Assembly (NCBI GenBank): GCA_030549335.1
Contig: CM060196.1
Location: forward strand, 71,570,139 to 71,634,138
Origin: Pontederia crassipes
Taxonomy: Eukaryota > Streptophyta > Magnoliopsida > Commelinales > Pontederiaceae
Direction of reading: 5' to 3'
Length of the DNA stretch: 64,000 nt
Numbering within the stretch: the first letter of the stretch is position 1; each line of letters opens with the position of its first letter. Shown here in pieces: positions 1 through 64,000 of this stretch. The position numbers were made by a program, and so were the translations under genes. The notes below the pieces were generated by a model that saw only the letters and a program-made list of their open reading frames with translations, had not been told where the DNA came from and did not search any database.

Positions 1-1402
1 TAATTCACCATAACTTATATTAGAAAATTCGTACAAATTTAATTCATCTATGCCTTAGTGTAAAAAGCCCTTGAACAGTAAATAGAGAAATAAATAATGC
101 AAAAATAATTACGATTTAATTGAAAATTTCTTGACCCACACCATCACTACAACCTTGTTCTAAGTAATCTAATTGTTTCATTTATAGGGCTTTTAAAAAA
201 AAAGATAATCCTACTTCCTCAAATGTTTTGTAGGAAGGCAACTTGGATTATTTTAATTTCCTTAAAGGAAGTAGATTAGCCTCGTTTTTCATTAAAAAAA
301 AAATCTTTTAAAGTGGGAAAGAAGGGAAGCACAATTGGAAGAATCACCAATCTTTTCGGAATGCTCTCACCGGGAATATTTCGAACTCCAGACATCCTTA
401 AGCAATAACAAGCTGCTTGCCACTTTGACTCGGTCTCGTTACTTGGAATCACCAATCTTTGGTGCTTCATGTTCTTCAACTTCACCACTCCGACCTAGAT
501 GCACAAAGTGTGGGTCAAGGGCTTCATCGCCATGTGTAGCGGAGGGGATATCAAGCTCACATCACATGCCCTTCCAAATGGGCAGCTACTTTTTCTTAAC
601 GTCATGGCAATTGCTGCCAAATCTGCAAGGCTTCCATGTTACTCTCCAAGTTGGCCCAAAGCAAGCAATCGAGTTTCAGATACTGCCCTGTCTACAGAAA
701 ATAAGGGAGGTGGTGACATGATGAAGAGAGTAGTAAACAGAGATTTCCATATATACTCTCTCTCTCTCTCTCCCCTCTTTGTTCATGCATAAACATGTCA
801 CGCTCTCCTGCTGGAAGGCCACAGAAGCTTTTGCCTGTCCCCACTCCTGTCCATCCAGTAGCATCACACAACTGTTACCTTTGCTGGTCGTGGTGGGCAC
901 GATGTACCCATGGACAGATGAGGACACACTTTTTTGTTTTTTACATGAGGACGGTGAACTGTTAAATGATCTATGTCATCCTTCATGATCATACAAGCAA
1001 CCATGAGTATTTAATGAAACAACATGTCCACCACATATTATCTCTCAGCAGTACTATTCATGAGACGGAGGGAGAGAGCATAAAATTCAGGTCTGTACGA
1101 GAGTGATCAATTAGGTGGCATTTGAGCATCAACGAAAGATGACACATGCTGAGAAAAAACTAACGCAGCAGCCCAAAAAAATGTCCAATGCTCTGATAAG
1201 ACAGCGAGAGGAGAAAGAAAACTTGCCAATCCATTTCTGTACAAGCATCCAATTGATCGGAGCTACAAAACCCCAAATCAAGCGAGACAAAAAGGAAAGA
1301 CGAGGCGGGCGGATTTTTATAATGGTTCCACATGGAGAGTAGAGTAAAAGCTAATTACTACTGCACTACACTAAAAGCTAATTTTACCGGGGGGGACAGC
1401 AG
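1..1402. other. Intergenic, no gene recognised
   Basis: The stretch lies downstream of the cyclin gene. It holds a short (CT)n tract near 753-775 and moderately GC-balanced sequence at 330-1000. I found no protein similarity I could name and no splice-consistent exon chain. Part of it near 1100-1400 may be cyclin 3' untranslated sequence. Confidence 0.5.
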
Positions 1403-2495
1403 TCAGACAGCTAGTTGCTGTGTCTGCTGGCAGCTGCCAGACTCTTCCTCGCTCAGGTAGCATTGCAATCTTGGAGGAGCAGGAGGAGGTGATTCCAGGT
1501 ACACCTCCCTCTGCAGAATTGAACAATATGAATTGAAAACAGCGGGCGAGATGTTGAGCTCAAATCCAACTCCAAACAGGAACACAACTTCAAGGTAGTT
1601 CATCTCCACCAAGCTGATGCCTCCGACCTTGGCAAAGTATGCATTGTTGTAATATCTGCAGAACAAGAACAGGAGTCAGTTCTGGGATCATCAAAAGCAA
1701 TCTTAACTGTGCCTGACTGACATGTGTTCTGAAATATCAAATAGCAAACTTTTCCTTCTGAATTGACAAGATGGAGCCCTTTTTTCTGCTAGGACTGATG
1801 TATTGATACAGTAGAGTGGATTGATGTCAGAGGAATCCACATGCCAGTGGCATTTGTTTCTTTATTTTCCTCATTGATGCAGAGTCATGTACTGAATGAT
1901 TGATGCATTCCTCTGCAGTTGAAAGGGTATTGTCAGCGACCAACACCCCTCCAAGCAATGAACCAGTGGCTCTACCATCAGATATATATTATTTTTTAAT
2001 ATATATATATATTAATACTTTAATACATAAGTCCATTGCATCTGATGGCCTCAATGATTTGTTTGAGTCTAATTTTTGCAGACATGTTAAGATCTTTTCC
2101 CTTCCTCGTGACCAAGTCCTCACATCAATACATCATACCGAGGGTCTTAATGATTAATCTAGTGACTCGAATATTTTTGACAGCTGTCAGAGTATGAATC
2201 TAAAAGTTGCAAAGAATGATGAATGGGAAGTGAAACCAAACAATGCTATCAGTACGAAAGAAATGAAGAAATCAATCTAATAATTCAATTATTGGGGGGG
2301 ATACTTTTAACAGAAAACCACAAGGTTTTTACTGGTAAAGACTAAAGAGTGGTTTCTGTGCCACATCTTTAAGCGCCTGCGCCTGTGGAATTGGAATGAT
2401 GATGCAGCAATGAATACCTTTGAAGGCACGTCCAGCTCATTCTGAATTGGCAGATGTTTGGAGTACTACGCTGTAGGAGCAGCAGGAAGAGGAAG

Positions 2496-2536
<41 letters not shown>

Positions 2537-3407
2537 AAAAAAATAATAATATGCAGTCTCTTATTGATCTTGGTCCGTCAACCATTTCTAGTTTCTATCT
2601 GCATATGCATCTCTCTCTCTCTCTCTCGGGCACCTCATTGGGTTGAACAGATTAGGGAGCACCGACAGTGAGCCCTCCAAGATCTAAATCATGCATATAC
2701 GCAAGAAGATGATAAGCAGAACACAAACACCGCGAGATATTCACAGTTTTTCCCAATTCTCCGTTGGAATTGGCTAATTTCAATCTCTGCGTATACCAAT
2801 TTATCGACAGCAGATGAGTGACGCCAAGCGTATGCATTCATGCTTGAATGCAAAGAAAAAAAAATGTATATGATGAAGAATTCTGAATAAGATATAGCGA
2901 TGACAGTGATCAGTGGCATTATATATAAGCGAGCAAGCAAACAATTGAATCCGGAAGCCGCAATGAGGAATTTAAGGGCGTGCGCGCTGCTTACATGTCG
3001 TCCATGAACTTGACGGCGGAGAGGACGCTGGTGATGAGGAGGCGGTGGACGTTGAAGGAGTCCACGGCGAGGGCGTGGTGGTGGCGCTGGACGAAGCGGT
3101 CGAGGTAGATGTAGGCCACCACGTAGCAAGACACGCTGCAGTTGGCGTACCGGAAGATGCGCTCCAGGTAGCTGCGCACCGAGATCGACGGCTTCGTCAG
3201 CCCATGGAAGGCCGACGCCGCCCGCTCGTACAGCGGCGCCGCCGGCCCCACCGCCGCCGCCGACGAGGAGGTGGTGGAGGGGAGGAGGCCGCAGCTCGCG
3301 GCGGCCGCGTCGTTGTGCTCGGAGAGCCGCTCAAGGAGGGTGGAGAGGACGGAGACCACCATCGGGACCTCGTGATCGGGCGCCGCCGCCACCGCCTCCT
3401 CCGCCAT
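1403..3407 (-). CDS. CYCP4: P/U-type cyclin (CYCP4/CYCU4-like), two exons
   Basis: Exon 1 is 2995-3407 (ATG at 3407) and exon 2 is 1403-1655, giving 221 aa. The donor reads AT|GTAAGC and the acceptor CTGCAG|ATATTAC; joining them restores ...KFMDDIYYNNAYFAKVGG, the signature of the P/U cyclin box. Other hallmarks are SYLERIFRYANCS, YVVAYIYLDRF and FNVHRLLITSV in exon 1 and GFELNISPAVFNSYCS in exon 2. The length is normal for the family, which is short and has only the N-terminal cyclin fold. Family members bind A-type or PHO85-like CDKs and have been linked to growth and nutrient or hormone signalling; no specific role can be read here. Exon 1 is very GC-rich with an Ala-rich N-terminus, unlike the AT-rich 1.3-kb intron. 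The exact paralogue (P3 or P4) is uncertain. Confidence 0.93.
2498..2532. repeat. (GA)n microsatellite in the cyclin intron
   Basis: About 17 GA units lie in the cyclin intron, with a complementary (CT)n tract of about 8 units at 2611-2627 some 80 bp away. The two tracts could pair in the pre-mRNA. Confidence 0.9.
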
Positions 3408-3505
3408 TGGAGCACAGAGGCGGAGCAGAGCAGCAGGTGGAGGTGAAGGTGGAGGCAGAGGTGGAGGCAGAGGTGGAGGTGAGCGGCTGAGAGAGATCTC
3501 CGAAG

Positions 3506-3516
3506 CCTATTTATAG
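3506..3516 (-). promoter_or_regulatory. TATA box of the cyclin gene
   Basis: On the minus strand the sequence reads CTATAAATAGG, a near-perfect plant TATA box about 100 bp before the cyclin ATG. Between it and the ATG lies a short leader with a repeated 12-bp unit (CTCTGCCTCCAC on the gene strand, about 3438-3480). Confidence 0.75.
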
Positions 3517-4300
3517 TAATATGCTTTTAGGAGGGAATCTTGCAATACAGTACACTTGAATTATCCCCTTTTTTCACACCCAAATATATATATATCCCAT
3601 TTTTAATTTTTTTCCCTAATATTTCGCGAAATAAAATTAAAATTCTGTTAAACAAAGAGTTCAAATTTCGAAATCGTCATTAACGATCTAATCCGTAATT
3701 TGAATATAATAAAATAATTATTATTAATAGGAGTAGTGATGATCCTTAAATTTCGAATTGCAAACACAATTATTTCGCAAAATAGATTTAATCCTAATGG
3801 AATATACGAAATAATTAAGGTATTTATTTTCAAAAAAAATAATGGTTAGTTATCTGGTTTCTCAATTAATTATTGATGCTAAAACAAAATGACCGGGAAA
3901 AATGGTTTAAATCAGATTGTTAATTTCAATGGCTATTTTACTATGATTCAAATTTTACCATGTACTAGGTTTTATTCTTCATTTATGAGATATATTACCC
4001 TACAATATTTTCTTGAAAGCATCATTATTAGACTTATTAATTTTTTTTCATTAAGATCACAACAAGCAATTTGAATTGATCCACCACACTTGTTGTAATA
4101 ACTTTATGGATTTATGGTATGTAATCAGTGGCACACACCAAGGATTTGGTTGGTACCAACCATGTACAGGGAAGAGTTGAAGAAACCCAAAAAAAAAGTT
4201 AGGTTTAAGTTGGTCAATAAAAAAATATACAAGGAAAGATTTGGATTCATGAGTTGTATCTAACTTCACCTAAGTTTAACAAATTGCACATGACATTTGT

Positions 4301-30572: not shown

Positions 30573-30760
30573 ATCAACAATAGCAACAACAACAATAAAA
30601 CCTTATCCCACTAGGTGGGGTCGGCTACATGGATCATACGACACATTCGTTGATTCATATTTATGACATTCAACAGAGTTTTACGCTGGTTGTCGGGGCC
30701 TAACACAACCCTCCTTCTTTATTCGAGCTTGGAACCAACTATAAAACATAAGTGAAGTTT
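30573..30760 (-). mobile_element. Au-type SINE copy, minus strand
   Basis: On the minus strand it reads AAACTTCACTTATGTTTTATAG, GGAGGGTTGTGTTAGGCCCC, CGACAACCAGCGTAAAA, ATCAACGAATG, GCCGACCCCACCTAGTGGGA and ends in a TTGTTG-type tail. It is more diverged than the copies at 56-63 kb, and I found no clear target duplication. Its 5' limit coincides with the ACTCCGCC junction point of the other copies. Confidence 0.85.
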
Positions 30761-55900: not shown

Positions 55901-58900
55901 TCATTTTCCGCATTTGTCCTTTACAGTTTTATTTAAATAAATTCTAAAACTCATTGAATAAATTATAATAATAATTAAATAAACTATAAAATTAATCAAA
56001 TAAATATTAGTTAATTATTACGAATATATTATTATCATGTTTAAAAAATATATTAATTATTTTATAAATTTTAATTTTATGGGTGAGAATATATGTGATT
56101 TAAGTTTACGAAGTTAAAACTAATTAATATATCTAAATATAATTCTCTTGATTAGGGGTATATTGGTAAAAATTATATATTAACTCATAAATCTTTATTT
56201 TTTTAAATAATTAATATGGATTGTCAGGGGTGCGATCATACCAGCACTAATGCACCGGATCCCATCAGAACTCCGAAGTTAAGCGTGCTTGGGCGAGAAA
56301 CTCCGCCTATATTTTATAGCCGGTCCCAAGCCCGGATAAAGGAGGAGGGTTGTGTTAGGCCCCGACAGCCAACATAAAATCATGTCGAATCTTATGAACA
56401 TGGATCAACGAATATATTGTTGTTGTAATATGGATTGTCAGATAGATTACTTATGCATATTACACAAGGTAATGTACATTGCTGACAATTTAACAAATGT
56501 ATGACAGCTGCCGCCAGATTATGGTTTTCGTGATTTTGATCCTATTCGACTTGAAAAACAAGCCAAACGAAGCTTTAACCACCCCAAAAAATTTTTGAGA
56601 GAAAAAATGATGGTTACCGAGTTGTGGAAGCCATTAAGGATGTATTTTAATTGTAGAAATGCTGGATGCACGTGTGATAGTCAAAACATGAGAGATTATA
56701 GAGCTAAAAGACACATCCTTAAGTGCAAGATTAACTAAGTTACCTAAAACTCCTCTCATGAATCAAAAAGGAAATATGATGTACAATAATTCTTTCACAT
56801 GTATCTCCCCACATCCCGAAAATAGTGTGATTGGGCTGTAACCAAATAGCCTAGGTGACCGACAAAAAAATCGCTATCAATAAGTGCCACTCTTGGCTGC
56901 CATTATCCTAAAAGCACTACGCGTGACCTCCAGAGATCATTAGTCGTAGAGTGATCCACCCTTATGAGATGAATCTTTCTCCATGCCTCTAAGGTGACAG
57001 GACAGAAAAAAATTAGCAGGGGATGCCCTCCGCCGCTGCCCCACGCATGACGCATAAGATATTTATGATGGGTGCTCATATCGCCTGGTATACTCAGATG
57101 AGAAGCCTCCCTCAAAGCATAAGCCAACCAAAGATCTGGACTTTAAGAGGCATGTGGGATTTCCAAATTTGCAGTCAGATCTGAGTCTGCAAGACGAAAT
57201 GCACTCAGAAACGTAGTAGAGGAGTTGAAAAACTTTATCTGAGCCACTCTAGGGTTGAAAAATATATAATTAGGGGTTAAATAGACCACGTTTTGCATGC
57301 TTTTCAACAGAGAAAAAATGGAGTTTCTGTTTTGAGAGGCAAAATGATGACAACCAGAATTTGTAGTTGTCATCTAGGTATATATATAACTATAAAATCA
57401 GTCATCATATACAGAGCTTCAAAAAAAAGAGGGTGGGTGGGGTGGGGTGTACAACAGCTAACCGAAACCCTACTCCCAAAAAAGAAAGGAAGCATGAAAT
57501 ATAATAGACTCCACCTGACCTCGCTCCCATAAAAAATGATCCTGTTGGAGCAAAATGGCCCAGGTACTAGCCAAGTTGTTAGAGAAGAAAAAAGAAAACC
57601 ACCAAATTTTGTGGTTGTCATCCATGTATATATGTTGTTAATGAAATGGTCAACTGCTCTTAAGGAAAGAGCGCCAAAAGAAAAGGAGAAAAAAAAGAGA
57701 TATAAGTGTACAATATTGTCAACATGACATCTCTTCCCACAAAAAATGACATGGTTATGCTTATCTACTTGAAGGTTGAAGAGTTGTCCAAGCACGGTGC
57801 ACTCGACTGAGGTTCATTGCTTGGATTCTACGTTCTTCTAGAGAGTAAAAATTTCGTTTTACTTTGTTTTTTAAATGATTTCAAGCAATCAAAATGTCAT
57901 GGTAAATAGTATAACTTTCTGATGCATACAACTTACCATACTGAGGGGATATGCTGCAAGCAAAGCTCGGGGGAGTGCTGAAGTGAAGTACCAATGGAAT
58001 GGTTGAGTCTAGATATACAAGAAAATCAAAGAGAACAGCCATGAAATAGTTCTTACATATATAACATAATGCCTCTAGTACATCACCTACATATCAAGAA
58101 AGACAGCATAAAACATACAGAGATAGCACACTTTTCTCCTTGGGAAAGACTATCATACATACCCAGCCTAGTAAAGAAAAAGATGAAGCTGTGCTCGATA
58201 AAACTTTATGAGGTGAACAATGCAAACATTTCTCTGCATAAACAGCAAGAGAAGTTATATTTGATATCCTTTAAACTCTGAAATATATATTTGGGACACA
58301 AAAGCACAGGGAGTGCATGAATGCACAAATTATATGATAAATTTTTGAAAATAATATAAAATTAAAGATAGCAAGGAGAAATAAACGTACTACAACTTAT
58401 ATTAGCATGTACATATAAGCTTAAGAGAACATAATAAAGGTTTGACAAGGATACACCCCATTCTGAACTCCTATTTAGAACAGAGTTAAACCAGAAAACT
58501 TCCAGTTCCGGCCACACAATTCGTTGCCACATTACTGAATCAAGCAGCAAAGTAGAACCTGACAAAAAAATGACTTTTGTGAGAACATTAGGTAATGATG
58601 ATGAACCAATGCTTCCTCACGGCAGCACATTTTCTGTGCAAATCCAAAGCATGGACTTTTCAGCATATCACATTGCACATAACTTGGTGAATTTTCTAGC
58701 TCTTGCCAGAAGGGGACCACACTTCAATGCCAACAAAGAAGCAAAACAGAGGCCACCAAGGCTATCTAAATTAGATGATTCCATACAGAAGAACTTGCCT
58801 ATGCACACAACGGCAGTAACCATGCAGCACCTTATTGCCTCCAGTAACGAAATGGACTTGCTCTATAACACAGAATACAATAAAACTTCAGATAATTATA

Positions 58901-61900
58901 AAGAAAAGCCAACAAGAATTATAAAGAAAAGGAAATCAAGAATTACTACATATGATATAGTTCAATATTTCTGACAGATAATGAGTATATGGATGAGAAC
59001 CACAAATTTTGGTGATCATCCTTTTTCTCCTAAAAAAATATTTATGAGTATTGCCTTTATCATTCCTCCTATTTAGGCACAAATGAAAGATCATTACCAC
59101 AACTATTTCCAAGCCAAAAGATTTCCAGTTTAAAATAAAATTTCCCATTTATCACCCACCCTAATGATATATCCAAATTGCCTAGGTAGAATTCTACGTC
59201 TTATTATTTTTTAACAGTTTATGTGATGAAACATTATGAACTCGTAGATCAGAAGGTCCAGATCTTAGCTCACGGCATTCAATTCAACAAACCACCAATT
59301 CTTTTTTTCCTTAGGTAAAAGGATGACTATGAGAAGATAGAAATCCATAATATACATGTATACATGTGTGTATGTGTATAAAATATCAGAACCCAAAACA
59401 TGAACATGTGTGAGGAAAAGTTCAAAACATATAGAGGTGGGAGACGAGTAAGAACTACAATTTCTTAGATGGCCAGTATATGCACCTGTTTCATGCATAT
59501 TTAATTGGCACTAAGACAATCACAAAACAACCTAGACATCTTCTATGTTCTATTTATGCATTTAAGTTCACTGAGACTAAATGAATACAACACTTAGGAA
59601 GTATTATATGAGCACCCTGTAGATATACAAGATCAGATCATGTTTTAGGTCTTGTCACATGAAGGACAATTATACATTTTTTTCAAGGATTACCTATATC
59701 AATTCCACAACATAATAACCAACTAAAAATATGAAGACAAAGACCAATTATGTTTAATAAATAAAACTACAAAAGCAAAGACCAATTATGTTTAATAAAT
59801 AAAACTACAAAAGCAACTAATGATCCAACTTCCTGGTAAAGCTCATAGGAAGATCATAGAGAGGTGTTGAGGAACATACTAGCAGAAGTTCAATGCCAAT
59901 TGGTCCAAAAAGCAATAATGTATCACATCTAAAAACAGCTGTAGCAAAAGTCTGCAACATAGAGATAAACTTTTTTTATCAAGATTGACATGTTTGGTAG
60001 TTGTGAAAAAGCTAACTCTGACAACTTAAAGTGCACATATGAAGCATTTCAAACTAAGCTGAGAATATTACATTCATTTTAAGGTTTCCAGATTTGTAGA
60101 ATTTTTCACCCACAGGCATTCAAAAATAGGTATATCAAAGAAGGTTTTTTTTTTACATAAGCTCTGAATCTATCACTGGAAGATGTGTGAATAACATTGA
60201 GAAAGGTATAGATTTGAGTGACGAAGTTAAAGGTAAAAGGCATCAAAGTGGGGACAATGTTTTTTAAGTTTTCCAGCAAATCTTGAGAACAGTCAACAAT
60301 GAGCATCAGTAAGTCAGAGGTAACCAGAATATAGATCATGCACAAGCAATAAGGAATAATCAATGATCCCTTGGAAATCGAGTTCTTTTGATACTACTAT
60401 TAAAGTTGTAATATCCTACTATTTTGATCCCCTGCTATGTCAAGAACTGATTTAGGCAAAGTAATTTAGATGAGTAAGGACTTGGGAGTCCTAGGAGTTC
60501 AAGTTTTTTTTTTTTTGAGAAGAGAAAGGATGACTAGCAAGGAGGTAGCCGTCCAGGGGTTATATTAATGAAATGTTAGGGTGGGACTCTCATTCAGTTT
60601 CACTTTGTTCTCTATTTTATAAAAGCCTATAAATAGACATTAATTCTTTTATGATCAATCAATCATATTCCGCCTATGTTTTATAGCCGGTCCCAAGCCC
60701 GGATAAAGGAGGAGGGTTGTGTTAGGCCCCGACAACCAGCGTAAAACCCTGTCAAATCTCATGAACATGGATCAACGAATGCGTCGTATGATCCATGTAG
60801 CCGACCCCACCTAGTGGGATAAGGCTTTGTTGTTGTTGATCAATCAATCATATTGTCCATTTTATTCTAGGAAATCCTATGGTGCTATCTTTTTTTATCA
60901 GATCTATGCTTGATGATACTAAGCCATCCTATCAAACTTTGATGTTTTTTGAACCATCAATGTCTTTTGAAACACACCTGAAAATGTAACTTCCTCTGAT
61001 TTGATCCATTGTTGTGCCATATCATTGTGATAAAAATTTTAGCAAAAAAATTATATGATTTCATGACTCAACTTTAAGCAAGCAAATGTAATAGTTTGCA
61101 TAGATACTCAGCATTAGAAATTCAGTAGGTTCGATATGGAATCTCTAAATACTTCTTTTTGGAGGAAATCTCTAAGTACACCTATGGAATAGAGGACACA
61201 TTTGTCCAAAACAAAATAAATTACCTTACTCTGGTTATAACATTGTTCCACTAGCAATAACAGATATAAAAAATAAAAGAGAGAATTCCACAATTACAGA
61301 TGACAATGCTTTTTAGAATTGTAAAGGCCATATGAAGAAATACCAGACATCTCAAGGTTGCAAAGGGATTTTCCCTGAACCAGAAAGCATACGCCAAGTT
61401 AACTGCATGCAAGGAATATATTTAATTCAGTTTTATTTTCTACTTAAAATTACTGAACAAAACCTCAAAAATGTTCTTTTTTGGGTTACTGAAGAATCCA
61501 GTGAACCATACCAAGACTAAAGGCATTAAATGATTTTGCATTAGCCACCTAATATAAATTTTTTAAACACTTATGGTTACCAACGAATGTACTGGGGAAT
61601 GAGGTCCAAGAATGTGCAAATGGCAGCTAAAATAAGGGAGACATGCAGAAATCATGGTTTAACGTTACATTGATGTTTAGTGTCTGTCCAGAAACGAATA
61701 CACTACCTCTTTCAAAAAAATGATGCAGGAGTCTTGGTTTATTTACTTTTCTAGCACTTTAGCCTTACTTAGGAGTCGTAATTTATCTGACTCTATTAGA
61801 AGAATTCTCGTCCAGGTGAAATTAATCTTCCACAAGACTATTCAAAAGTTTGGCTGCTGGAAAACCGGGTGTAGACTCAATTCCCAATTTTATTTCATAT

Positions 61901-64000
61901 TAAAAAGATTTTTGAACTGATCTCTTTTTTGGAGTTTCTTTCAAGTGCTGGTGGATCCCAGGGGTGATCCTTTTGTCGTTCTCGTTCATTGAACCAGTGT
62001 GGAAGTGTCATTGTTGCTTATCTGTTTTGTTTGATTTCTGTGGAAATTCTTTGTTCATCATGTTGAACATCTTATTTTTGTGTGGTTCACGTTTTCAATT
62101 TCTTATTTGCACTACTGCATCAATTGATATCAGAGCGAAACTGAGATCACCAAAGATGTGCCTAACGAGTTGAGTTTCAAGCATTGGAGAAAAAAGATAG
62201 GGTGAATTATTGATGTATTTGAAAAGACTTCTAAGGTAACAGATCAAGTTTGACTTCAATCAAAAGGAAGTTTTTTTTTTTTTGAGAGGGAAAAGGATGA
62301 CTAACATTTGGTAGCCATCCACGTATATATATCAGTAAGAAGAAAAAAAGGAAGAATATTGAATCAAGGGTATCAGCCACAAGACATGATAGTGAAAAAC
62401 TTTACTAGGTTATTATTTATCCGCATGAAAAAGGAGAATATTCACCCTCTTTATGAAGATGAGCTAACATTGGCTGAAGTCATTTTCTGTGAAGCAAATA
62501 TTGAGACTAAAAATGAGAACTTATTAAAGAAAAAGCTAACATAGATTTGACACCAATGAGAATCCTTGATGAGCGACACAAATTAATAATTCGAGAAGAA
62601 GATAATAAAGACAGAAACATTATTTAAAGAGGAAGTTGATTGAATTACTTCAAAGTGATTTAGTAAGTGAAGGCGTTCCAATAAACATTACATACAACCA
62701 TCAGATACTTAAAGGAATTACTTCTATCTAGGCTAGATTTTCAAGTGAAACAAATGTAATGCCATCTTCTGCAATGAAGTATTATCATCCATGTGATCAA
62801 GGTGTTCCATTCTCCACATTGTGAAAGAAGATCCATCCTATTAGATACATCAAACGTTATCCTCCGAACTGACATATTCGAGTTTGCAGTCGAATACCTT
62901 TTAAGGGGGAGAACATGATATAGTTGTCTTAGTTTATTCACATTTATATATTTCTATTTCAGTTAGGAATTGCAGTTTATCTCTGACACTATTAGAAGAG
63001 TCCTAATGTTGGTGAAAATTAATCTTCTACAAATCTATTTTAAAGGTTTGTATTGTTTGAAATTTATACACTAATTTGATTAAAAATACACAATTTTTCT
63101 GAACTTAGAGTTTGTGAGAGAATGATCTTTAACTTGGGAGTTTGTTCCAAGAGTCGGTGAATTCCAGGGTTAGCTCTTCATTGACTACCATCTGCTTGAA
63201 CCTGTGGCGTTATCATTTATCCATTTTACTTCAGTTCTCTATCCGCTACGCCAAAAAATATGATTTTTTTTGTGAGGTATCAGTTCCTACTTTGAATTGT
63301 TATTTGCTCTACCGCATAAAAAATGAAGGCAATATACTAAATGATCAAGAAACTCCGCCTATATTTTATAGCCGGTCCCAAGCCCGGATAAAGGAGGAGG
63401 GTTGTGTTAGGTCCCGACAGCCAACATAAAATCATGTCGAATCTTATGAACATGGATCAACGAATATAGAGCGGAATGGCGTCGTATGATCCATGTAGCC
63501 GACCCCACCTAGTGGGATAAGGCTTTGTTGTTGTTGTTGATACTAAATGATCAAGAATGTCGAACACCCATTCTGATTTTGTATCTTGTATGTGAACCAA
63601 GTTGTCAGATTTTACGAGGATCTTAAATTCTTGACACATGTAACATTTATATTTACATGCATAAAAGGTGGAAACTTTTTTTAAGAAGGTGAAAGGTGAT
63701 AACTTAGCACAAAAAATGATGCCCAAGGACTATGCCAATATCTAAACATTTAGAAAATACTTTAATATATGGTCATTAAGAGAGAAAAAAAAAACTAGCT
63801 CTTCATATAGCTAGAGAACATCCTAGTCAGACATCTGGGTTATGGGAAAAAAAACCAAATAGAAAAATGACCGAAGTCCATGATAATAGTCTGATAAAGG
63901 AATTTATATCACAGCTGAACAAGTAAAGAAAACAGGAAAAAATTATGAGTCAAAAGGCAGAAGATGATCACCTACACCAAAAGCTAATACATTTGGAAGA
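50000..64000 (-). CDS. ALG12: ALG12 dolichyl-P-Man alpha-1,6-mannosyltransferase, C-terminal 14 exons (5' end outside window)
   Basis: Exons in transcript order: 64000(partial)-63972, 61402-61344, 59951-59880, 58862-58799, 58558-58455, 58008-57937, 53837-53751, 53659-53592, 52782-52714, 52642-52560, 51616-51514, 50967-50902, 50329-50236, 50080-50000. Phases join throughout to about 349 aa. ALG12 adds the eighth mannose to the lipid-linked N-glycan precursor in the ER lumen. Landmarks: [98 protein letters not shown]; stop after WPGCK. Several are multi-span hydrophobic GT22 segments. Roughly the first 150 residues, with the catalytic luminal loop, lie beyond 64000. One intron (58798-58559) starts with GC. 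Introns host SINEs, LINE tails and an LTR fossil. Confidence 0.94.
55466..55502 (+). mobile_element. Micro-insertion TCTTCTT + A-run, 11-bp direct repeats
   Basis: CAAAGATAATG at 55466-55476 recurs at 55492-55502. The 15-bp insert TCTTCTTAAAAAAAG resembles L1 3' ends in this window. Confidence 0.6.
55574..55615 (+). mobile_element. Micro-insertion CCTCCT + A-run, 14-bp imperfect direct repeats
   Basis: AGTTCTAACAAATG (55574-55587) and AGTCCTGACAAATG (55602-55615) flank CCTCCTAAAAAAAA. The insert matches the CTCCTAAAAAAA end of the L1 tail at 58989-59043. Confidence 0.6.
56228..56426 (+). mobile_element. Chimeric SINE with 5S rRNA head
   Basis: The 199-bp insert has a perfect 15-bp target duplication AATATGGATTGTCAG (56213-56227 and 56427-56441). 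Its first ~71 nt (56228-56298) match the 5' part of plant 5S rRNA nearly perfectly (GGGTGCGATCATACC, then GGATCCCATCAGAACTCCG and AAGTTAAGCGTGCTTGGGCG), which covers the A-box and intermediate element of its Pol III promoter but not box C. It then passes directly into the SINE body (ACTCCGCCTATATTTTATAG, B-box-like GGTCCCAAGCCCGG). The conserved 3' block (ATCCATGTAGCCGACCCC...) is missing; it ends in TTGTTGTTGT. Confidence 0.92.
56820..57160 (-). mobile_element. L1-type LINE fragment (RT C-terminal zinc-binding region)
   Basis: On the minus strand, in shifting frames, it reads [24 protein letters not shown], and [15 protein letters not shown]. This is the classic zf-RVT segment of plant L1 reverse transcriptase ORFs (PLK--FLWL---R--T, then C--C, H-F--CP----W). 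It is frame-broken and 5'-truncated. Confidence 0.7.
57300..57670 (-). mobile_element. Two L1 3'-tail copies
   Basis: At about 57300-57390 and 57575-57670 the minus strand shows the tail seen elsewhere in the window: TATATATAC, GATGACAAC...GTTGTCATC stem-loop, then pyrimidines and an A-rich end. The second is preceded by CATTTCATTAACA. Confidence 0.6.
58559..58798 (-). other. GC-AG intron of ALG12
   Basis: The exon ends ...GTGTGCATAG and the intron begins GCAAGT, the consensus for GC donors. The next GT (in AAGTTC) would break the frame, while the GC donor joins G|GT to give [14 protein letters not shown] as in ALG12. Confidence 0.85.
58981..59051 (+). mobile_element. 55-bp L1 3' tail with 8-bp target duplication
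   Basis: ATGAGTAT (58981-58988 and 59044-59051) flanks a GGATGAGAACCAC...GTGATCATCC stem-loop followed by TTTTTCTCCT and an A-run. This is an L1 copy truncated to its last 55 bp. Confidence 0.7.
59738..59813. repeat. Perfect 38-bp tandem duplication
   Basis: The unit beginning CAAAGACCAATTATG occurs twice, head to tail (59738-59775, 59776-59813), without differences, so it is recent. Confidence 0.9.
60504..60580 (-). mobile_element. L1 3' tail, minus strand
   Basis: A run of 13 T is followed by GAGAAGAGAAAGGATGACTA, a GGTAGCCGTCC arm and TATATTAATGAAATG. On the minus strand this is ...CATTTCATTAATATA, stem-loop, TCTTCTC and poly(A). Confidence 0.65.
60670..60838 (+). mobile_element. Au-type SINE, 5'-truncated, 16-bp TSD
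   Basis: ATCAATCAATCATATT flanks it (60654-60669 and 60839-60854). The copy starts at CCGCCTATG, includes the complete 3' domain (GCCGACCCCACCTAGTGGGA) and ends TTGTTGTTG. It lacks any head upstream of the ACTCCGCC point. Confidence 0.92.
61140..61179 (-). mobile_element. Micro-insertion, 13-bp imperfect direct repeats
   Basis: AATCTCTAAATAC (61140-61152) and AATCTCTAAGTAC (61167-61179) flank TTCTTTTTGGAGGA. On the minus strand the insert reads TCCTCCAAAAAGAA, like the CCTCCT-A(n) insert at 55588. Confidence 0.5.
61721..63316 (+). mobile_element. Old short LTR retroelement (copia-type) in an ALG12 intron
   Basis: Two diverged LTRs of about 400 bp (61721-62119 and 62916-63316) share TGAT starts, CTATTAGAAGA, TTAATCTTC, TTTGGAGTTT/TTGGGAGTTT and a TTATTTGCNCTAC-GCA end. 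A primer-binding site like TGATATCAGAGC follows the left LTR, and a purine tract AAGGGGGAGAA precedes the right one. The ~0.8-kb internal region shows no intact gene. LTR divergence is high, so it is an old, broken fossil. An L1 tail is inserted in it. Confidence 0.8.
62262..62354 (-). mobile_element. 75-bp L1 3' tail inside the LTR fossil
   Basis: AAAAGGAAG (62262-62270 and 62346-62354) flanks T13, GAGAGGGAAAAGGATGACTA, a GGTAGCCATCC arm and ACGTATATATAT. On the minus strand this is an L1 end with poly(A). Confidence 0.7.
63352..63539 (+). mobile_element. Au-type SINE, 18-bp TSD
   Basis: ATACTAAATGATCAAGAA flanks it (63334-63351 and 63540-63557). The copy starts ACTCCGCCTATATTTTATAG and ends TTGTTGTTGTTG with the full 3' domain. 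It shares diagnostic bases (GACAGCCAACATAAAATCAT) with the 5S-headed copy, so the two are close relatives. Confidence 0.93.

Follow-up and report, generated by a model that had tools for sequence, protein, structure and literature searches.

A chimeric insertion of 5S rRNA and an RTE-type LINE in Pontederia crassipes, probably formed by template jumping

How does a piece of 5S rRNA come to stand at the head of a SINE-like body within one insertion of a plant genome, and does such an insertion belong to a 5S-headed family or record a single event? The window (i.e., the whole stretch of 64,000 nucleotides of Pontederia crassipes analysed here) contains such an insert at 56228-56426, in which a 5S rRNA part is followed by a SINE-like body with (TTG)3 at its end. 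The earlier note had described it as a 5S/SINE chimera that begins at the first base of 5S rRNA, follows it for about 71 nt and then switches to a SINE body, with a clean 15-bp target duplication, and our analysis confirms that this chimera is real. Indeed, the 5S part agrees at 71 of 71 positions with the 5S form that is most frequent in the host loci fetched, and Rfam matched RF00001 at 56228-56328 (53.7 bits, E 2e-8). After 5S nt 71, the insert sequence runs AACTCCGCC... and equals nt 2-123 of an RTE-type LINE (copy L074); the first A is common to 5S and LINE, the identity to LINE nt 1-123 extending from 56298 on, and no base lies between the 5S and the body. In the Rfam structure, the joint falls in the helix after the three-way junction; box C of the 5S promoter, which we take to be nt ~80-97, lies beyond the 5S end of the window copy. 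The target-site duplication (TSD) AATATGGATTGTCAG is an exact direct repeat of 15 bp (56213-56227 and 56427-56441), or 16 bp if the ambiguous shared T is counted, with no further copy on either strand within the window; it directly abuts 5S nt 1, and this one pair brackets 5S and body together. As in chimeric retrogenes, two unrelated RNAs are thus joined in sense order within one TSD pair, at a joint that the insert has in common with no other copy.

The SINE-like body corresponds to the first ~122 nt of the LINE, and several copies (L022, L023, L025 and others) extend beyond it into LINE sequence. Within L074 (G000:C8:70099700-70104500), positions 426-3599 hold a LINE copy that starts with AAACTCC, ends in (TTG)n and measures 3174 bases; it is flanked by a 19-bp TSD and carries a single EN+RT frame of 1029 aa (counted from GTG under the bacterial start rule) with RVT_1 (8.6e-37) and Exo_endo_phos (1.1e-7) matches. 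Its one ORF with both EN and RT and its (TTG)n tail, from which the name is taken, fit an RTE-type element; according to a passage of PMC3747384, the RTE LINEs of plants terminate in (TTG)n or (TTGATG)n. The conserved 3' block of L074 encodes the C-terminus of its protein, and the 5' end of this copy gives a sub-cutoff twister-P1 match. With its LINE 5' end, (TTG)n tail and TSD, the window body has the traits of a non-autonomous RTE derivative; the LINE 3'-terminal block is absent from it, and from the short form generally. The sister copies that had been pointed out near 60670 and 63352 were recovered, together with a third, older copy on the minus strand; both plus-strand sisters are bipartite, being made of the LINE 5' end, the LINE 3' block and (TTG)n.

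The absence of the 3' block from the window copy, which had been regarded as odd, turned out to be ordinary. In a survey of 38 RTE 5' ends in 35 loci (the best 35 of 40 by likeness to the window copy, which was itself part of the sample, as L001), the sorting gave 18 short copies, 10 with the 3' block and 10 that continue into the LINE, and TSDs were found by script for 13, 6 and 2 of them, respectively. Note that the ranking by likeness to the window copy favours short copies, that one copy sorted as short (L080) is really LINE-internal and has a single altered base, and that the script missed the TSD of the window copy because it lies before the 5S. The AG found before AAACTCC in many copies was rejected as a query-ranking bias. 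Genome-wide, 43 exact matches to the tail of the short form, GGATCAACGAATATATTGTTGTTG, were counted (controls 0), some of which may precede a 3' block. The LINE itself reads ATTGTGTT at this position, so the short copies have the appearance of RNAs shortened on their 3' side, with a stretch resembling TTG as their end. Since short (TTG)-ended copies are common, the window chimera would have used an ordinary short donor, and the (TTG)-only short form suggests that the LINE 3' block is unneeded for mobilisation here.

At the level of the genome, the joint of the window insert is unique in the assembly. An exact-junction pattern of 30 bases, with up to 3 mismatches, gave 1 match in the 1.13-Gb genome and 0 in the controls, and a looser pattern (5S nt 14-25, 10-70 bases, RTE 5' end), which covers joints between the RTE 5' end and 5S at about nt 35-95, likewise returned the window as its single match; for repeats, such counts are lower bounds. 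The earlier note had left the choice between a template jump and a 5S-headed family to a genome search with the 5S-body junction, and the single copy falls on the template switching side: a junction found once argues for a single jump event and not for a family. The jump reading therefore stands and the family reading, for which no recurring joint was seen, does not; what had escaped that interpretation is that fusions of this kind recur.

Indeed, our searches identified 5S/RTE fusions at nine insertion sites (ten loci), i.e., the window on C14 and eight further sites on C1, C3, C4, C8, C9, C11 and C6, the last with C6a (one site, two copies) and C6b (Table 1). Six 5S places outside the C16 array were inspected among the best 5S matches (C15, two on C9, C6, C4 and C3); those on C3, C4 and C6 are 5S/RTE fusions, and those on C15 and C9 resemble ordinary 5S genes. 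On C16, about 24.27-24.41 Mb, lies the apparent main 5S rDNA array, with a unit of about 327 bp judged from match spacing and an identical 5S sequence in many units. A pattern leading from the 5S 3' end to the RTE 5' end gave 5 matches, of which 4 are real; the fifth (L062, on C5) was rejected, being a SINE without 5S whose target holds TTGCACCC, which recurs behind its tail. A longer-distance pattern from 5S to the RTE 5' end gave 4 matches, 2 of them new compared to the former pattern, and a pattern from 5S to the RTE 3' block gave 3 matches at 2 sites, each of these three patterns having 0 matches in the controls. The likeness of L002 to 5S nt 62-70 was also rejected, as a chance likeness of its TSD. 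Antisense 5S, sought genome-wide at the LINE 5' end only, gave 0 matches. Since the patterns covered the sense order near two LINE positions and the antisense order at the LINE 5' end only, the census is incomplete and does not establish an orientation bias.

Table 1. Features of the window around the chimeric insert, and composition of the 5S/RTE fusion sites in the genome (5S and LINE numbers are nucleotide positions in the respective element; the arrow marks the joint).
Feature or site	Position in window	Strand	Description	Basis
Left TSD	56212..56227	+	16 bp (15 without shared T)	exact repeat
5S rRNA nt 1-71	56228..56298	+	71/71 identity to host 5S	RF00001
Predicted twister-P1 ribozyme (RF03160)	56294..56353	+		covariance match below gathering score
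RTE-type LINE 5'-terminal part, nt 2-123 of L074	56299..56420	+		100% identity over LINE 1-123
(TTG)3 tail	56417..56425	+	T at 56426 assignable to tail or TSD	sequence
Right TSD	56426..56441	+		exact repeat
Sister RTE-derived SINE	60668..60838 (start about 60668-60669)	+	without 5S	3' block, (TTG)n, own TSD
Sister RTE-derived SINE	63350..63539 (start about 63348-63350)	+	without 5S	3' block, (TTG)n, own TSD
Older RTE-derived SINE copy	30645..30760	-	script found no TSD	81% identity over 116 bp
C14 (window)			5S 1-71 -> LINE 2	dissection
C4			5S 1-118 + short T/A stretch -> LINE 1	dissection
C3			5S 1-131 (12 bases downstream trailer) -> LINE 2	dissection
C1, L073 (G000:C1:25285500-25291200)			5S 10-123 (5'-truncated) -> LINE 2	near full-length, diverged RTE LINE
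C8			5S 83-121 -> LINE 1	dissection
C9			5S 1-19 + 50-120 -> LINE 1	5S nt 20-49 missing
C11			5S 3-96 (change in nt 1-2) -> LINE 2	dissection
C6a, dimer copy			5S 12-126 + 5S 1-113 -> LINE 3102	tripartite 5S-5S-RTE, one TSD pair
C6a, other copy			single 5S -> RTE	same site as dimer copy
C6b			5S 63-74 + 23-122 -> LINE 3092	extra 5S piece

The window insert is best explained, with good confidence, as a single chimeric retrotransposition via template jumping, in the course of target-primed reverse transcription, from a short RTE RNA to 5S rRNA. The donor would be the RNA of a short non-autonomous derivative of the RTE-type LINE, which the protein of that LINE, probably the element found here, would reverse transcribe at the nicked target beginning at the (TTG)n tail. 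On arriving at the donor 5' terminus (AACTCC...), presumably an end left by twister cleavage as the ribozyme prediction suggests, the enzyme would jump to 5S rRNA at nt 71 and copy up to the 5S 5' end, and the fused product would enter the genome whole, duplicating the target site; the parts would accordingly have been joined during reverse transcription. Joints cluster at the LINE 5' terminus: seven of the nine sites have an RTE part that begins with LINE nt 1 or 2, which suggests that the enzyme had reached the end of its template, and C6a and C6b are joined inside the LINE. In addition, six of the nine (C1, C3, C4, C8, C9 and C6b) have a 5S part that runs to the 3' end of 5S or into its trailer, as expected for end-to-end jumping, which is known for the R2 reverse transcriptase (from a title cited in PMC2104539); the joints of C14, C11 and C6a are at 5S nt 71, 96 and 113. 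Repeated jumps during copying are suggested by the 5S-5S-RTE order of C6a, enclosed by a single TSD pair, and by the rearranged 5S parts of C9 and C6b. Chromosome C6 carries two copies of the C6a site, oppositely oriented and with common flanks (L070 and L071/L012; G000:C6:33671836, C6:34431957). Abutting TSDs of 13-17 bp accompany 7 of the 9 sites. Against a template jump, no TSD was found at the C1 insert, and C3 has only a 9-base repeat, 16 and 29 bases off the insert ends. The window joint at 5S nt 71 may also require internal entry or a 5S fragment, which is less usual than an end-to-end jump; internal starts on small RNAs have been proposed for U5 (in a passage of PMC4476161).

The earlier note had favoured a jump at a preferred stop point, and in substance this was right: the stop point is the LINE 5' terminus, where a twister ribozyme is predicted to cleave. 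A permissive Rfam search matched twister-P1 over the joint with 59.0 bits (E 3.8e-13), below its gathering score of 67.2, and a gathering-threshold search of the window insert listed only 5S. Searching 14 further loci gave 16 twister-P1 matches in 13 of them (40.7-66.5 bits, all below the cutoff), all sitting at RTE 5' ends; the 5'-truncated RTE of L012 gave no twister-P1 match. In the window alignment, the inner hairpin is shorter than in the twister-P1 consensus. Twister ribozymes cleave between U and A, directly in front of AAC, and we take the consensus cleavage point to be 56298/56299, i.e., the 5S/RTE joint, so the joint lies at the terminus that cleavage is predicted to leave. In the window copy, AAC is preceded by A and not by U; C3 and C11 have T there. 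A passage of PMC7761336, referring to work in preparation in 2020, describes truncated twisters that are still catalytically competent as conserved at RTE 5' ends.

The nine sites, and the layout of the insert (5S head, LINE-derived body and tail, as in 5S-headed families), could at first sight suggest that the window copy is a member of a plant 5S-headed SINE family comparable to SINE3. However, the joint differs at every site, the sole repeat being one site duplicated with its flanks (L070/L071), the exact window junction exists in one copy, and the part of the 5S promoter that we take to be box C is missing from the window copy. In the genome pattern searches, we did not find many copies with one joint and different TSDs, as in SINE3; the junction patterns gave single-copy joints, and we therefore reject a family, of which the window copy is very unlikely to be a member. 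An origin from two separate insertions, or from a Cassandra-type LTR element with 5S, is so improbable as to be nearly negligible: Cassandra LTRs do carry 5S-related sequence (as stated in a part of PMC10853983), but one long TSD pair spans both parts here and no base lies between 5S nt 1 and the TSD, which leaves no room for an LTR and rejects a Cassandra TRIM. An assembly or library artefact is equally hard to credit, since the perfect TSD, the eight further sites with an identical order of parts and the zero control matches all speak against it, although the joint is read from assembly sequence.

A closer competitor is joining at the RNA level, since ligation before reverse transcription would give an identical insert at the window locus. 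In such a scheme, which we consider unlikely, a 5S RNA or 5S fragment ending in a 2',3'-cyclic phosphate would be ligated to the twister-made 5'-OH of the RTE RNA, and the hybrid would then be retrotransposed; plant tRNA ligase, an RtcB-like activity or the reverse reaction of the twister could act as joining agent. It accords with this scheme that 7 of the 9 joints stand at the predicted ribozyme-made 5' end, that the C14 joint has no extra base and that RNA ligation is one of the two routes named for U6/LINE-1 chimeras (in a passage of PMC13174262). On the other hand, C6a and C6b join inside the LINE, the 5S is rearranged at C9 and C6b, and C1, C4, C8 and C9 have additional or altered bases in front of AACTCC, which could, however, come from variant 5S trailers. 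Moreover, in the C6a dimer the trailer of one 5S meets the 5' end of the next; in a 5S transcript this end is normally a triphosphate and no ligase substrate, which favours repeated jumps. Alternatively, the twister may govern both the birth and the fate of the fusions: its cleavage would make the 5'-OH end that is joined to 5S, by ligation or by a jump, and it would also cut the head off transcripts of 5S-headed copies. We hold these two parts together as a tentative, rather unlikely account, under which the predicted beheading would explain why fusions recur and no family was found.

Template jumping may not be the only route by which the RTE LINE meets small RNAs, as suggested by U6 considered as an alternative partner. 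In the genome pattern search, sense U6 beside the RTE 5' end gave 0 matches, the U6 motif used being present in 8 of the 8 U6 loci returned. Of 48 U6 rows scored (8 as loci and the remaining 40 within 39 fetched stretches), RTE likeness within about 500 bases of U6 was found in 0/8 loci and 2/39 stretches. In L114 (G000:C12:46253714-46254822), antisense U6 (nt 15-91) adjoins a 5'-truncated RTE LINE (2844-3169), and no TSD was found around this arrangement, which is possibly a twin-priming chimera; its existence means that other routes may occur. In L129, the RTE likeness lies some 390 bases or more from U6.

Chimeras of LINEs with small RNAs are already known from mammals, other vertebrates and a fungus; the present case is one of an RTE LINE and 5S in a plant. 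As in the U6/L1 and 5S/L1 chimeric retrogenes of mammals, the small RNA stands on the LINE 5' side within one TSD-flanked insertion, but the mammalian chimeras involve L1 and poly(A), and ours RTE and a (TTG)n tail. A passage of PMC13174262 reports 27 5S/LINE-1 insertions in mammals, in which the 5S is as a rule antisense, with truncation at nt 46 or 90, whereas all nine here are sense, noting that our patterns sought the sense order and tested antisense at the LINE 5' end only. U6 chimeras with RTE-like elements are mentioned for Anolis in part of PMC4476161. A 5S head combined with RTE parts also characterises Ped-1 of the springhare, made of 5S and BovB (PMC3747384), and the bipartite RTE derivatives whose bodies, consisting of RTE 5' and 3' ends, acquire tRNA or 5S heads (as described in a section of PMC7245038); unlike these amplified families, each fusion here is a one-time event, and the LINE 3' block is missing from the window copy. 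The tobacco TS SINE and plant RTE LINEs have the (TTG)n tail seen here (same passage of PMC3747384), but TS has a tRNA head, and the elements here start with the LINE's own 5' end. The double jumps of C6a recall MINE and the tripartite chimeras of Magnaporthe grisea, attributed to LINE template switching in a passage of PMC2104539, with another LINE, other RNA partners and a fungal host. As for the twisters conserved at RTE 5' ends, predicted here at 16 such ends besides that of the window, the passage concerned in PMC7761336 makes no mention of 5S chimeras. A passage of a review from 2026 on how plant transposons capture genes (PMC13317346) gives template switching for LTR elements and names no LINE case there, and our literature search by titles and abstract openings, with most subscription papers outside its range, met no plant 5S/RTE chimera.

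Altogether, the gain of a Pol III RNA head by a SINE is usually inferred from old families, and the nine separate 5S/RTE fusions of one plant genome, some of them nearly undiverged, catch this step with no visible amplification. Several features may together account for the lack of a family. Most fusions carry the oligo-T trailer of 5S, a probable Pol III terminator, between head and body, and such T runs may stop Pol III before it reaches the body. The window fusion avoids the trailer at the cost of a promoter part, ending as it does before what we take to be box C. In addition, the RTE body itself contains TTTT near its start, and the predicted ribozyme at the beginning of this body could remove any head. 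In this context, the nine fusions allow us to ask what lets a fusion amplify.
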